The notes beneath the pieces were generated by a model. It searched no databases. It worked only from the letters and a program-made list of their open reading frames with translations, and was not told the origin of the DNA. This document shows positions 37,002 to 46,071 of a stretch of 64,000 nucleotides of DNA, piece by piece (positions within the stretch are counted from its first letter, which is position 1; each line of letters starts with the position of its first letter). The position numbers were made by a program, and so were the translations under genes. Origin of the DNA: Fundidesulfovibrio magnetotacticus (lineage in GTDB: Bacteria > Desulfobacterota > Desulfovibrionia > Desulfovibrionales > Desulfovibrionaceae); the NCBI RefSeq assembly GCF_013019105.1, contig NZ_BLTE01000005.1:124001-188000 (forward strand), written 5' to 3'.

Positions 37002-38042
37002 ATGTCTCCCAACGGGCGGTCCTCCACCGTCCCGGCGCTCGTACTGGCCGGACTTCTTCTGTGCCTCGCCGCACCCTCACCGGCCCAGACGCCCAGGGCG
37101 GAGACGCCTTTGCGCGTCTTCGTGGTGCAAAGCTACAACCAGGAATACGTCTGGACCCGGACCATCAACGAGGGCCTGCGCGAAGCCCTGCGCGGGCTCG
37201 ACGTGGTCATCGAATTCTTCTACCTGGACGCCAAGCGCAAGCCCGACCCCGACAACCTCCGGCGTGTGGCCCGGGAAGCCCTGGCCCGCATCGAGGCGCG
37301 GCGGCCCCAGGTGGTGGTGGCCGTGGACGACCCTGCCCAGGCCTACCTGGTGGAGCCCTTCCTGAAGGGCCGCGCCTCGCCGCAGGTGATCTTCTGCGGG
37401 GTCAACGCGCCCCTGGCGCTCTACGGCTACCCGGCGGCCAACGTCTCCGGCGTGCGGGAGCGCTGGCACTTCCGCGAGGGCTTCGCCTTCCTGCGCCAGC
37501 TCTTCCCGGACGTCGGCTCCGTGGCCCTGCTCCTGGACGAATCCGAATCGGCGGGTTTCGTCCTGGACGACCTGCGCGAGGACCAGCGCCTTAACGGCCC
37601 CTTCGCCGTGCGCCTGGCCGCCGTGGAACAGGTGGCGACCTTCCAGGCCTGGAGACGCAAGGTGTTGGAACTCCAGGAGCGCGCCGACGCCCTTGCCCTG
37701 GGCCTCTACCACTCGCTCGTGGACGAGGAGACGGGCCTGGTGGTCCCGCCTGAGCAGGTGGCCGCCTGGAACGACACGGTTGTGCGCAAGCCCACCCTGG
37801 GCTTCACCGACTTCTCCCGCGACCACGGACACCTGGCGGGCGTGCTGGAATCCGGGCACGAGCAGGGTTTCCTGGCCGGCGGCATGGTGCGGGAGATCCT
37901 CACGACCAGGGTGGCCGCCGGAACGCTCCCCGTGCGCATCAACGACCAGGGCATCGTCTTCCTGAACCTGCGCACCGCCGAGCGGCTGGGCCTGAAAATC
38001 CCCTACGAATTCATCGAGGCTGGCGAGGTGGTGGTGCGATGA
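37002..38042 (+). CDS. ABC-type periplasmic binding protein, sensor accessory
   Basis: This 346-residue exported protein has a signal peptide (~1-28, ending S-P-A-Q). Its two-lobed substrate-binding fold resembles the TrpX/BMP-like family (V-F-V-V-Q-S-Y-N-Q-E-Y-V-W-T; V-V-V-A-V-D-D-P-A; V-I-F-C-G-V-N-A). No permease or ATPase gene is near. Its stop overlaps the start of the histidine kinase gene (ATGA), so it probably delivers a ligand signal to that kinase rather than transporting. AAGGAG precedes the ATG. Confidence 0.8.
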   Translation: MSPNGRSSTVPALVLAGLLLCLAAPSPAQTPRAETPLRVFVVQSYNQEYVWTRTINEGLREALRGLDVVIEFFYLDAKRKPDPDNLRRVAREALARIEARRPQVVVAVDDPAQAYLVEPFLKGRASPQVIFCGVNAPLALYGYPAANVSGVRERWHFREGFAFLRQLFPDVGSVALLLDESESAGFVLDDLREDQRLNGPFAVRLAAVEQVATFQAWRRKVLELQERADALALGLYHSLVDEETGLVVPPEQVAAWNDTVVRKPTLGFTDFSRDHGHLAGVLESGHEQGFLAGGMVREILTTRVAAGTLPVRINDQGIVFLNLRTAERLGLKIPYEFIEAGEVVVR

Positions 38043-40177
38043 AGGGGCTGCGTGGCGCGCTCACCCGCCGCCTTGCCTCGGACCGCCAGTTCCTGGCCGT
38101 CCTGCTTGCCGTGTTCGCCGGGGCCGTGGTCAGCACAGCCCTGGCCTACTCCCACACGCGCAAGACGGTGGAAGCGCTGGCCCGCACCCAGTTTCTCCAG
38201 AGCCTGGACTTCTTGGACCACGAAGTGGACGTGCAGGTGCGCGGAATGATCTTCCAGACCCGCCTGGTGAGCCAGGAGCCCGTGCTCCTGCTGGCCCTGG
38301 AAGAAAGCTACCTGGGCGGCTCGGCCCGGGCGGCCGCCCGGCGCAAACTGGAAAGCCTGGTGGAGGACGGCGTTTTCGAACGCTTCTACCTGATGAACAT
38401 GAAAGGCGCGATCGTCCTGGCCTCCAACCCCGCCCTGGCCGGGACCCTGGACGTGTCCGACCGGCGCTACTACCGCGAAGCACGCGAGGGCCGCCCCGCC
38501 CTGGAGACGGTGGAGACCTCCCGGGTGACCGCACGGCCCATTCTTGTCGCCTCGCAACCCGTGCGCGCGGCCGACGGCTCCGTGCGCGGCGTCGTGGTGG
38601 CCATCCGGGACACCGCCGCCTTCGCCCGGGACATCCTGGCCCTGCCGCATCTGGGGGGGCTCGGCGTCGGCTTCATCCTTGGCAAGCACGGCAGCGTGCT
38701 GGCCGCACCGCCTCAGGGCGATCAGCCAACCTTCCAGCCGGACCCCTTCGTCCCCCTGATCGTCCACGGGGCGGACTCGAACCAATTGGTGCGTTTCGAT
38801 CGACAGGGCGTCACGCGCATCTGCCTGGCCAAGATCAACCGCATCACGGGCTGGATCCTGGCCGTGGAAGCCGACGATGCCCTGGTGCTCTCCCCGGTGA
38901 ACCACCTGGCCGCCGTGAACGTGGGCGTGGCCCTGGGCACGCTTGCCCTGGTTGCGCTTGCCCTCGGGGCGCTGCGCAAAGTGCTGGCCAACCTGCGCCG
39001 CTCCGAGGAGCGTTTCTCCATGCTCTTTCGCCTCTCGCCCGAGGCAGCGCTGCTCCTGGACGCCAACGACCTCTCCGTGCTCGCCGTCAACGAGGCCTAC
39101 ACCCGCCTCACGGGCTACGCGCCCTCCGAGGTGCTGGGGCGCTCCATTCCCCAGATCCAACCGGAGATCGACCGCGCCCGGCTGGATGCCTTCCACGCCG
39201 ACGTGCTGCGCGGGGGACGCGTCGTGGACCGCGAGTTCGAGGGACGCCGCAACGACGGGCAAACCTTCAGGGTCTCCGTCTCCGGCCAGATCATCGAGAG
39301 CGAGTCCGGCCTGTGGCTCATGATTCTCCTGCACGACGTCACCCAGGCCCGCAAAATCCAGGAGATGATGATCCAGACCGAAAAGATGCTCTCCGTGGGC
39401 GGCATCGCGGCGGGCATCGCCCACGAGATCAACAACCCTCTGGGCATCGTGGTCCAGGCCTCCCAGAACCTCGTGCAGCGCACCCGCCCGGACCACCCGA
39501 AGAACATTGAGGCCGCCCGCGAGGTGGGCGTGGACATGGGCCTCGTGGCCCGCTACTTCCAGGCCCGCCAGCTTGACGTGTTCGTCCAGGACATCCAGGG
39601 CGCCGCCTTGCGCGCCGCGAGCATCATCCGCCACATGCTGGACTTCAGCCGCAGCAGCGAGTCGCGCCGCAAACCCTGCGACCTGGCCGCCATCCTGGAA
39701 AAGGCCCTCTCCCTGGCCGCCAACGACTACGACCTCAAGAAAAGCTACGACTTCAAGCGCATCACCATAGACAGGGACTTTGAACCCAACCTCCCCTCCG
39801 TGCCCTGCACCGAAACCGAGATAGAGCAGGTGTTCCTGAACATCCTGCGCAACGCCGCCCAGGCCATGGCCGAAGCCCCGCCCCGCCCGGAAGGGCCGCG
39901 CATTGGCCTGCGCCTGCGAGCCTTGTCCGGCCGCGTCCAGGCCGTTTTCGAGGACAACGGCCCGGGCATGAGCCCCGAAGCGCGCCGCCGCGCCTTTGAG
40001 CCCTTCTACACCACCAAGGCCCCGGGCGTGGGCACGGGGCTCGGCCTCTCGGTCTCCTACTTCATCGTGGTCAAGGGCCACGGAGGGCGCATGACCCTGG
40101 ACTCCGCGCAAGGCCGGGGCGCGCGCTTCACCCTGGAGCTGCCCCTGGGCGACGCCCCCCTGGACCCCGCCGCCTGA
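38039..40177 (+). CDS. Membrane sensor histidine kinase (Cache-PAS-HisKA-HATPase)
   Basis: This 712-residue protein has a first membrane segment (~18-38) and a periplasmic double-Cache-like domain (~40-295; the R-R-Y-Y-R-E-A stretch is typical). A second membrane segment (~298-320) is followed by PAS (~330-450), HisKA with phospho-acceptor H462 in G-I-A-H-E-I-N-N-P-L-G, and HATPase with D-N-G-P-G-M and G-T-G-L-G-L-S-V. It overlaps the binding-protein gene by 4 bp, suggesting joint sensing. No response regulator gene follows, so its partner is encoded elsewhere. Confidence 0.9.
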   Translation: MKGLRGALTRRLASDRQFLAVLLAVFAGAVVSTALAYSHTRKTVEALARTQFLQSLDFLDHEVDVQVRGMIFQTRLVSQEPVLLLALEESYLGGSARAAARRKLESLVEDGVFERFYLMNMKGAIVLASNPALAGTLDVSDRRYYREAREGRPALETVETSRVTARPILVASQPVRAADGSVRGVVVAIRDTAAFARDILALPHLGGLGVGFILGKHGSVLAAPPQGDQPTFQPDPFVPLIVHGADSNQLVRFDRQGVTRICLAKINRITGWILAVEADDALVLSPVNHLAAVNVGVALGTLALVALALGALRKVLANLRRSEERFSMLFRLSPEAALLLDANDLSVLAVNEAYTRLTGYAPSEVLGRSIPQIQPEIDRARLDAFHADVLRGGRVVDREFEGRRNDGQTFRVSVSGQIIESESGLWLMILLHDVTQARKIQEMMIQTEKMLSVGGIAAGIAHEINNPLGIVVQASQNLVQRTRPDHPKNIEAAREVGVDMGLVARYFQARQLDVFVQDIQGAALRAASIIRHMLDFSRSSESRRKPCDLAAILEKALSLAANDYDLKKSYDFKRITIDRDFEPNLPSVPCTETEIEQVFLNILRNAAQAMAEAPPRPEGPRIGLRLRALSGRVQAVFEDNGPGMSPEARRRAFEPFYTTKAPGVGTGLGLSVSYFIVVKGHGGRMTLDSAQGRGARFTLELPLGDAPLDPAA

Positions 40178-42759: not shown

Positions 42760-44322
42760 GTGTCCCCCGGCAAAGCACGCCTTCTGACCCTGGCGGCCCT
42801 GGTCCTGGTGGTCTCCGCGGGCGTCCTGGCCGCCCTGGAGTACGACAAGCTGCGCCGCGAGTTCTCCGAGCAGGTCACCCTCTCCGAGAGCCGCGCCGTG
42901 CGCGACGCCCTGGGAATGTTCCTGGCCCCGCCCCTGGCGGCGCTCCAGGCCACGGGCAAGCTCCTGGCCCAGTCGGGCGGGGGCCGCACGCCCGCCGAGG
43001 CCCTGCTCGTGACGCGCACGGCCCTTGCCGACGAACCGGGCCTGGCCTGCGCCGTCCTCACCGACGCCTCTGGCGTGCTGGCCATGGCCTGCCGCGACGG
43101 CCAGGATGCCCTGACCTTCCTGCGCCCGGCCACCGGCCTGGCAGGAGGCGTGTGGGAGCGCACGCGCCCGGGCGGCGCGGCCATCCCCGCCGCGTCGGCA
43201 GCGGACATGAAGGCCCTGGGCGATCTCCTGGCCGAGGCAGCCTCGACCCAGGCCCCCGGGCATCCCGCATGGCCCGCCTGGACCTGGGCCCACCGCCTGC
43301 CCGGGCTGCCCGGCCACGCCCTTTCGGCCTTGGTCCCGGCCGGGGCCGGCGGCGACGCGTCCCTGCTGGCCTTCAGCTTCTCGCTGGATTCTCTGCGCGC
43401 CGCTCTGGACCAGGCCCTGCCTGAAGGGGCGCGCGCCCTGCTCTTCACCTCCGGCGGGCAGGCCCTGCGCGCCTCCCTGGGCACGGGCGCGACCGGACCG
43501 GACGGCGAGGCCCTCTTCGCAGGACCGGAAGCCCTGGACGATCCCCTTCTGCAATCGGCCCTGACCGCCTGGATCGCGGCGGGTAAACCCTCCGGCGAGG
43601 CCTTCGCCTTCACGCGCGACGGCGAGGAGTGGTGGGCCGCCGTGAACGCCCTGCGCGACGACGATGTGCGCACCCTGGCGGGAATGGCCCTGCCCCGCCG
43701 GGCGCTCTTCGAGCTGCTCTTCCGAGGCAACCGCGCGCCCCTCTACGCCGGGGCGGGGCTGGCCATGGCCGTGCTCCTTCTGGCATCCCTGGCCGTGGCC
43801 GCGCGGGGCCGCAAGCGGCGCGCCCAGGCCTTTTTCGAGGCCGAGGCAGAGGTGGAAGCCCTCCTGGCAGCCGGGGAGTCCGAAACCCTTGAGTTCAAGT
43901 CCACCCTGCGCTTCAATCTCGCGGCGGGGCGCCCCGGCAAGGAGATCGAAATGGCCTCCATGAAGGCCATCACGGCCTTCATGAATTCCTCGGGAGGGGT
44001 GCTCGCCGTGGGCGTGGACGACCAGGGCGAACCCCTGGGCCTGGAACCGGACGGCTTCGAGAACGAGGACCACCTCCTGCGCCATTTCACCTCGCTCTTC
44101 GCCCAGCACGTGGGCATTGAGTTCCTGGGGCTGGCGGCTTTCGGCATGCGCTCCTGCCGGGGCAGGCGCATCCTCCTGGTGCGCTGCGCGCCTTCGCGCG
44201 AGCCCGTGATCCTTAAGGGCGGCAAGGAGGAGGAATTCTACCTGCGCGCCGGTCCCTCCAGCCGCAAGCTCTCCCTTTCAGACGTGCTGCGCCACGTGGC
44301 GAAGGGCCGCAGGGAGCTCTGA
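42760..44322 (+). CDS. Membrane sensor fused to AlbA_2 (Schlafen) domain
   Basis: This 520-residue protein has a first membrane segment (~7-25), a periplasmic region of about 300 residues that looks Cache-like (A-C-A-V-L-T-D-A-S-G-V-L-A-M-A), and a second membrane segment (~328-352). A cytoplasmic AlbA_2 domain follows (~368-518: E-S-E-T-L-E-F-K-S-T-L, then I-T-A-F-M-N-S-S-G-G-V-L-A-V-G-V-D-D, and I-L-V-R-C-A-P-S). AlbA_2 is usually a soluble putative DNA/RNA-binding or nuclease-related module. Joining it to a transmembrane sensor suggests a one-component device acting from the membrane. The start is GTG, 6 bp after malQ. Target unknown. Confidence 0.75.
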   Translation: MSPGKARLLTLAALVLVVSAGVLAALEYDKLRREFSEQVTLSESRAVRDALGMFLAPPLAALQATGKLLAQSGGGRTPAEALLVTRTALADEPGLACAVLTDASGVLAMACRDGQDALTFLRPATGLAGGVWERTRPGGAAIPAASAADMKALGDLLAEAASTQAPGHPAWPAWTWAHRLPGLPGHALSALVPAGAGGDASLLAFSFSLDSLRAALDQALPEGARALLFTSGGQALRASLGTGATGPDGEALFAGPEALDDPLLQSALTAWIAAGKPSGEAFAFTRDGEEWWAAVNALRDDDVRTLAGMALPRRALFELLFRGNRAPLYAGAGLAMAVLLLASLAVAARGRKRRAQAFFEAEAEVEALLAAGESETLEFKSTLRFNLAAGRPGKEIEMASMKAITAFMNSSGGVLAVGVDDQGEPLGLEPDGFENEDHLLRHFTSLFAQHVGIEFLGLAAFGMRSCRGRRILLVRCAPSREPVILKGGKEEEFYLRAGPSSRKLSLSDVLRHVAKGRREL

Positions 44323-44439: not shown

Positions 44440-45705
44440 ATGCCCCTTGCCGAGTCTGCCCCCACGCTCTACGTGGACACTTTTTTCGCACGCCAGCCCG
44501 TGTTCCGGGCGGACACCTCCGTGTTCGGCTACGAACTGCTCTACCGCAGCGGCAGCGAGGACGACACCGGAGACTATTCCGACGAGGACGCGGCCTCCCT
44601 GCTGGTGCTCTCCTCGGCGCTGGCCTCGCCCGCTGGGGCGGGCAAGCCCGACCGCAAGGCGATCGTGCATTTTTCGGAGCGCTCGCTCCTCACGGACCTG
44701 CACGCAGCCCTGCCGCCCGAGAGCACCGCGCTGATCATCAAGCCGCGCCGCCACGCCGGGGAGGGCTATCTCCAGACCCTGCGCAAGGCCCGCTCGCGCG
44801 GGTTCACCCTGATGCTGGACTCCCTCGAACCGGACGCCTGCGACCCCGCCCTCCTGGAGCTGGCCCGGGTGGTCTGCCTGGACCTGGCCGGACAGACGCC
44901 CCAGCGGCTGGCCGACGCCGCGCGCGCCCTCAAGACGCCCGGACGCCAACTCCTGGCCCGTGGCGTGGAAGACGACCAGGGCCTGCGCCGGGCCAAGGAC
45001 CTGGGCTTCGACCTCTTCCAGGGCTTCTTCTTCGCCAGGCCCGTCATCGTGCCGGGCCGCAAGCTCCCGACGGGACGCCTGGCCCGCCTCTCCATCCACA
45101 AGACCCTGGGCAAGGGGGAGGACGCGCTGGAGGAGCTGGCCCGGGTCATCGAATCCGACGTGTCGGTGAGCTATCGCCTGCTCACGTTCATCAACTCCGC
45201 GTCCTTCTCGGCGCGCCAGAAGGTCAGCTCCATCCGCCACGCCCTGAATCTGTTGGGCTGGCGCAAGGTGCGCGGCTGGCTCCTGATGGTGGTGCTCTCC
45301 GAGCTTTTGCCCAAGGGCAAGCCCTCGGAGCTGCCCTACCTCTCCACCATCCGGGCGCGTTTCCTGGAGCGCGCCTCGTCCGGCCTGGCCCCCGGGGGAG
45401 TGACTCCGGACACGCTCTTCCTCATGGGCCTTTTTTCCCTGCTGGAGCCCATGCTGGACACCCCCATGCCGGAACTGGTGGACCAACTCCCCCTGGACGA
45501 CGCCGTGAAGGACGCCCTGAGCGGCAAGCACAACGGCTTCACCCCCTGGCTTCACCTGGCGCGCTGTTTCGAGACGGGCGACTGGTCCCGACTCGACGAA
45601 CTCACGACCCGGCTGTCCCTGGACCCCGTGAAAGTGGCCAGCTCCTACTGCGAGGCTTTGGTGTGGGCCAAAGCCCTGGAGGAGCAGGCCTCCGAAACCC
45701 CCTAA
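44440..45705 (+). CDS. EAL-HDOD (YuxH-like) signalling protein
   Basis: This 421-residue protein has an N-terminal EAL-like domain (~10-200; F-A-R-Q-P-V-F and V-F-G-Y-E-L-L-Y-R) and a C-terminal HDOD domain (~205-400; I-E-S-D-V-S-V-S-Y-R-L-L-T-F-I-N-S-A). The EAL signature reads E-L-L, and most metal ligands are not evident, so c-di-GMP hydrolysis is unlikely; binding or protein contacts are more probable. YuxH-type proteins of this layout act in two-component and motility circuits. It begins 117 bp after the AlbA_2 gene. Confidence 0.85.
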   Translation: MPLAESAPTLYVDTFFARQPVFRADTSVFGYELLYRSGSEDDTGDYSDEDAASLLVLSSALASPAGAGKPDRKAIVHFSERSLLTDLHAALPPESTALIIKPRRHAGEGYLQTLRKARSRGFTLMLDSLEPDACDPALLELARVVCLDLAGQTPQRLADAARALKTPGRQLLARGVEDDQGLRRAKDLGFDLFQGFFFARPVIVPGRKLPTGRLARLSIHKTLGKGEDALEELARVIESDVSVSYRLLTFINSASFSARQKVSSIRHALNLLGWRKVRGWLLMVVLSELLPKGKPSELPYLSTIRARFLERASSGLAPGGVTPDTLFLMGLFSLLEPMLDTPMPELVDQLPLDDAVKDALSGKHNGFTPWLHLARCFETGDWSRLDELTTRLSLDPVKVASSYCEALVWAKALEEQASETP

Positions 45706-45720
45706 CCCCCCGGAGGCATC

Positions 45721-46071
45721 ATGCGAAAGTTCGTCGTACCGCTTCTCCTGGTCCTGGCCCTGGCCGGTCAGGCCCTGGCCGCGGAGAAGCGCATCGTGTT
45801 CATCAACTCGGTCAACCAGCAGATAAAGGGCATCTTCCTGGCCCCCGCTGGCTCCGGCCAGTGGGGCCCCAACCTCCTGGACAAGTGGAAGCTCAAGAAC
45901 GGCCGCAAGGTGGACATCGCCGTGCCCCACGACAGGGGCAACTGCCAGTGGGACCTCAAGTACGTGGTCCGCGACAAGCTGGCCTACACCGTCAAGGACA
46001 TCGACATCTGCAAGGCCGTGGAAATCGAACTGTTCCTGGACAAGGGACAGGCCTGGGCCAACATCAAATAG
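45721..46071 (+). CDS. Small periplasmic protein of unknown function
   Basis: This 116-residue protein has a clear signal peptide (~1-21, cleaved after A-L-A-A). The remaining domain (~95 residues) is beta-rich with two cysteines that could pair (in N-C-Q-W-D and D-I-C-K). It resembles small extracytoplasmic beta-sandwich proteins, but I recognise no family. A GGAGG site precedes the ATG. It is 15 bp after the EAL-HDOD gene and 9 bp before a Cys-rich lipoprotein gene, forming a tight cluster. Confidence 0.7.
   Translation: MRKFVVPLLLVLALAGQALAAEKRIVFINSVNQQIKGIFLAPAGSGQWGPNLLDKWKLKNGRKVDIAVPHDRGNCQWDLKYVVRDKLAYTVKDIDICKAVEIELFLDKGQAWANIK

Follow-up and report, generated by a model that had tools for sequence, protein, structure and literature searches.

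The 64,000-nucleotide stretch of Fundidesulfovibrio magnetotacticus DNA analysed here (the window) encodes a receptor in which a double Cache (dCache) sensor, held between two transmembrane helices, is joined to a single AlbA_2/Schlafen domain. We read this protein, with a probability of about 0.5, as a one-component receptor whose dCache sensor controls an output that acts on nucleic acids, probably an endoribonuclease. Cache receptors are known to signal through kinase, chemotaxis and second-messenger modules, and the Schlafen domain is known chiefly from antiviral tRNA nucleases. Among the extracellular sensors of prokaryotes, Cache domains have been described as the largest superfamily (PMC4822843), and literature searches, from whose scope most subscription papers fell, gave no paper joining Schlafen or AlbA_2 domains with Cache sensors; a known sensor superfamily and a known output class were not found described in this combination. 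Through a conserved Cache-Schlafen family, a small molecule outside the cell would gain a direct path to the cleavage of RNA and the control of translation. If this is true, nutrient sensing (of amino acids in most relatives) would be tied to translation without a kinase, a second messenger or a transcription factor.

The receptor gene and its distribution

The gene begins with a GTG codon at position 42760 and its stop codon ends at 44322, giving 520 codons on the + strand, and it starts 6 bp after the stop codon of malQ; an earlier note made from the sequence alone had placed the open reading frame at exactly this position. Its features are as follows.

42760..44322, + strand: whole gene for the TM-dCache-TM-AlbA_2 receptor, 520 aa, GTG start (codon model, conservation, dN/dS)
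42781..42837, + strand: transmembrane helix 1, residues 8-26 (hydropathy; long helix 3-71 in the AlphaFold2 model)
42838..43719, + strand: predicted periplasmic dCache sensor, residues 27-320 (fold match; a homolog above the Pfam dCache_1 cut-off)
43747..43803, + strand: transmembrane helix 2, residues 330-348 (hydropathy; helix 326-356 in the model)
43804..43875, + strand: short predicted cytoplasmic linker, residues 349-372 (positively charged start; no HAMP match)
43876..44271, + strand: AlbA_2/Schlafen domain, residues 373-504 (PF04326; fold match to the SAMD9 tRNase domain and SLFNs)
43876..43878, + strand: codon of E373, equivalent to SLFN13 E205 (HMM alignment and conservation)
43891..43893, + strand: codon of E378, equivalent to SLFN13 E210 (HMM alignment and conservation)
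44020..44022, + strand: codon of D421, equivalent to SLFN13 D248 (HMM alignment and conservation)

The codon model predicts the gene as coding, and a full-length ortholog with 46-52% identity is present in each of six genus mates, so that the gene occurs in 7/7 genus genomes examined. In the two ortholog pairs that are closest to each other, the dN/dS of the AlbA_2 part and of the dCache part lies between 0.06 and 0.22, and the gene is under purifying selection; conservation and dN/dS together rule out a chance reading frame. No NCBIfam model matches the protein, and a promoter and terminator scan gave no signal above chance. It is the only AlbA_2 gene that was found in the genome.

A single-protein search of genome contigs returned no match, and a profile search succeeded. 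Of the 53 loci that this profile detected in named genomes, about 30 have the TM-dCache-TM-AlbA_2 layout, which was found in Pseudodesulfovibrio, Desulfocapsa, Desulfobacterium, Desulfobulbaceae and Geobacteraceae, in Chromatiaceae and other Gammaproteobacteria, and in one Bacteroidetes MAG. In searches that covered 247 genomes from the order and 297 from the phylum, full-length members came from at least seven families. The architecture that had been singled out in one protein recurs, then, across Desulfobacterota, Gammaproteobacteria and a Bacteroidetes MAG, and it marks a conserved family and not a freak fusion.

Membrane topology and the periplasmic sensor

Hydropathy predicts the two-helix membrane anchor that had been proposed, the segments at residues 8-26 and 330-348 being the only hydrophobic ones in the protein. 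The sequence RGRKRR follows the second helix, and the AlbA_2 domain is therefore predicted to be cytoplasmic. For the region between the helices, about 300 residues which the earlier note had called periplasmic and Cache-like, an AlphaFold2 model of the full receptor (25 homologs as input; mean pLDDT 85.7) gives a double Cache fold at residues 27-320. This fold matches the sensor of the kinase soHK1S-Z6 (3lic) with Z 17.8 over 246 residues and PctA (5t65) with Z 17.2 over 231 residues, and many amino-acid chemoreceptors match it with similar Z values. The window receptor has no match of its own to the Pfam Cache models, including dCache_1, while a homolog from a Geobacteraceae MAG (L042) scores 54.5 against the dCache_1 cut-off of 45, with other homologs matching below the cut-off. 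Judged by its modelled fold, the periplasmic part is a true dCache domain and more than 'Cache-like'.

The full dCache_1AA amino-acid motif we take to be Y121, R126, W128, Y129, Y144 and D173 in PctA numbering. R126, Y129 and D173 have been discussed for PctA (PMC10104139). When L042 is aligned to PctA all six residues match, and with Y/F allowed 11 of the 25 aligned full-length members have the complete motif, as do all nine profile-collected Desulfobacterota members that do not belong to the window genome's own family (L109-L117). Most members of the receptor family outside Desulfovibrionaceae share the PctA-type binding residues, whereas the motif is absent from the Fundidesulfovibrio members, the window receptor included, and from the Pseudodesulfovibrio members, so that it predicts no ligand for the window receptor. 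The relatives that carry the motif would be a simple test bed, combining a predicted ligand with a predicted enzymatic output.

The AlbA_2 domain and its acidic triad

The proposed identity of the C-terminal region was borne out by the profile: residues 373-504 match PF04326 (SLFN_AlbA_2) with E=1.3e-15 and 58.4 bits, above the curated cut-off of 25.3. Modelled alone, the domain reaches a pLDDT of 94.8. Its best PDB match is the bacterial AlbA_2 protein DIP2311 (3lmm; Z 13.7), and it also matches the SAMD9 DNA-binding domain with DNA (7ksp; Z 12.9), the SAMD9 tRNase domain (Z 12.3) and SLFN5, SLFN11, SLFN13 and SLFN14 (Z about 9-10). A profile of the AlbA_2 subfamily detects the SLFN13 structure 5yd0 at 5e-10, aligning E373, E378 and D421 to E205, E210 and D248, a numbering in which the 26 residues outside the construct 14-353 are taken to be an N-terminal tag. 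The RNase activity of SLFN13 needs these three residues (PMC5862951) and SAMD9L function requires the equivalent acidic site (PMC11221667). Every one of the 25 full-length members in the alignment keeps the triad unchanged. The first scan patterns included LEFK, with a possible selection bias, and a second, profile-collected set served as control; there the triad is kept in 32 of 32 proteins, which answers this worry. The triad nevertheless falls within the general AlbA_2 sequence signature, and part of its conservation is a signature of the fold.

Four basic residues (K380, R384, K402 and R496) are likewise invariant in the aligned members, and it is the full acidic triad coupled with these residues that makes metal-dependent RNA cleavage or processing the most likely output. 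The earlier note had envisaged a one-component receptor acting through a nucleic-acid-binding or nuclease-type module; layout, fold and intact triad agree with this, and the activity itself is a prediction.

The same domain might instead bind DNA. In that case the protein would be a membrane-bound one-component transcription regulator of ToxR/CadC-like layout, controlling promoters through AlbA_2 and retaining its acidic residues for structural reasons, an alternative that we consider rather unlikely. The SAMD9 AlbA_2 domain does bind DNA (7ksp; PMC11221667), and the invariant basic residues would suit such a role, but a Pfam scan of the receptor matched no HTH model or other transcription-factor domain, and the three acids are strictly kept while D420, adjoining D421, varies freely across the aligned members, a pattern that looks catalytic and not structural. 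Less likely again is a non-enzymatic signalling adaptor, whose AlbA_2 domain would bind a protein partner, a nucleotide or RNA without cleaving it. AlbA-type folds often bind nucleic acid only, and two subfamily relatives of other architecture (L053 and L075) have N at the position of D421; the retention of the triad throughout the separately collected set argues against an adaptor, as does the dN/dS of the AlbA_2 part, which is below that of the sensor in both close ortholog pairs.

If the receptor does control RNA cleavage, as we prefer, the periplasmic dCache domain (27-320) would sense a small molecule, and the second transmembrane helix and the 24-residue linker, which lacks a HAMP domain, would relay the sensor change to one cytoplasmic AlbA_2 domain. 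The state of the receptor would then control metal-dependent cleavage or processing of RNA (tRNA or rRNA) by that domain. Each receptor chain has one AlbA_2 domain and not the two-lobed Schlafen box in one chain, and with a single lobe per chain a two-lobe box must arise by dimerisation: a membrane-tethered dimer would pair two AlbA_2 domains in place of the two lobes of the eukaryotic Schlafen box, and control may be exerted through dimer geometry. That the nuclease site can lie on just one AlbA_2 domain is indicated by the title of a PDB entry, 'rSAMD9 tRNase domain'. More tentatively, the family could represent a class of ligand-gated membrane ribonucleases, in which a small molecule outside directly switches a Schlafen-type tRNA/rRNA nuclease inside.

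Comparison with known receptors and Schlafen proteins

Like the dCache_1 chemoreceptors and kinases PctA, PctB, Mlp24 and soHK1S-Z6 (Z 15-18), the window receptor has a periplasmic double Cache domain between two transmembrane helices; dCache_1 proteins have an MCP, kinase, GGDEF or HD-GYP output, however, whereas here there is one AlbA_2 domain and no HAMP. On the output side, SAMD9 and SAMD9L likewise have one AlbA_2 domain, which matches in fold (Z 12-13) and contains an E/E/D site, but they are large, cytosolic animal proteins in which the first two acids are spaced by 12 residues instead of 5. The 5-residue E-E spacing is found in SLFN13, SLFN11 and SLFN14, along with the C-lobe fold and the E205/E210/D248 triad, although these are soluble proteins that unite both lobes in a single chain, in most cases extended by C-terminal regions, and they have no membrane sensor. 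A Schlafen-fold RNase with a membrane anchor on one subunit is known in PUCH of C. elegans (TOFU-1/TOFU-2/SLFL-3 or -4), which differs in being a trimer whose anchor is a C-terminal transmembrane helix for mitochondrial localisation, with no ligand sensor. DIP2311, for its part, is a chain of about 580 residues of which the N-terminal part alone matches, and no dCache match was seen in it.

Modular exchange of sensor and output

With the same profile as in the genome searches, other receptors in the order were matched by the sensor half only, at E<1e-20, among them one in the window genome, a hybrid histidine kinase. The sensor-sharing receptors that were scanned comprise hybrid histidine kinases, a GGDEF protein and an HD-GYP protein, with dCache_1 above the cut-off in all. 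In Flammeovirga aprica (L064:5551-6483) a response-regulator receiver domain carries an AlbA_2 domain of this subfamily, and the gene adjoins one for a hybrid histidine kinase. As the sensor is swapped among outputs and AlbA_2 is carried on a receiver domain, AlbA_2 would hold the output position in the window receptor. A REC-AlbA_2 protein also has the layout of a response regulator, which counts in favour of the transcription regulator considered above.

The subfamily occurs in several further settings. A protein from a Cloacimonadota MAG (L061:3898-5853) combines it with HATPase_c_2 and a weak, sub-threshold GNAT match, and in Patescibacteria (L062, L063, L066-L075) it occurs in proteins some 330-360 aa long, together with two transmembrane helices at the N-terminus and a bPH_2 domain (a Pfam match in both that were scanned, L062 and L073). 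The premise that AlbA_2 is normally found in soluble proteins was accordingly too strong, many AlbA_2 proteins being membrane-anchored, the present receptor family and the bPH_2-AlbA_2 proteins of Patescibacteria among them. In two proteins from genomes in the window genome's family (L026:8575-9801 and L027:8306-9493), the same AlbA_2 subfamily is preceded by about 240 uncharacterised residues, in which no sensor domain is predicted. The F. aprica protein and its adjoining kinase make up a two-component system with an AlbA_2 output.

In a Myxococcales MAG (L077) the subfamily is found on a restriction-type helicase, within a type I restriction-like protein, and Schlafen-family RNases have been linked to BREX and other defence loci (PMC12839542). 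Both observations would fit an anti-phage or stress-suicide effector, in which envelope disturbance leads to tRNA cleavage and growth arrest as in bacterial Schlafen defence systems. We regard this as improbable, given that PADLOC found no match for the receptor, its malQ and EAL-HDOD neighbours or four relatives, that all the genus mates have the gene, among housekeeping neighbours that are conserved in part, and that Cache sensors of this type sense small molecules. The BREX-linked Schlafen defence proteins also differ in architecture, being fused to a minimal histidine-kinase-type ATPase and a wHTH and encoded in defence loci.

Genomic neighbourhood

In the Pseudodesulfovibrio-type genomes the receptor gene (X) occupies the order phoH-ybeY-X-argF in 12/12 cases and in most lies within a few bases of ybeY or overlaps it. 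The ybeY product is an endoribonuclease, and the phoH-ybeY setting favours a role of the receptor in RNA metabolism. Elsewhere the neighbours vary (in five Gammaproteobacteria the gene is flanked by two squalene/phytoene-synthase genes), which weakens any assignment to a single pathway, the link to RNA processing resting on one clade. No neighbour is conserved across lineages as an obvious regulatory target, a point against the DNA-binding alternative.

Coregulation with glucan metabolism, which the earlier note had suggested from the position of malQ, is not supported by the neighbourhoods in the six genus mates, none of which has a malQ match in the 7-10 kb around the ortholog; among the genus genomes compared, the adjacency is confined to the window genome. 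Upstream of the ortholog there are pilT-like ATPase genes in four genus mates and unrelated genes, apparently for cobalamin synthesis, in two. Downstream lies a cluster common to 7/7 genus genomes, made up of a gene for a small, apparently secreted protein, a FemAB-like gene and a TPR gene, and an EAL-HDOD gene follows the receptor gene in five of the seven. In the window the EAL-HDOD protein (44440-45705) matches the EAL model by its C-terminal end only, and the small protein of the cluster (45721-46071) has no Pfam or NCBIfam match. Further upstream (37002-40177), the gene for an ABC-type substrate-binding protein overlaps that for a dCache-PAS histidine kinase, and the two are likely to form a sensory pair.
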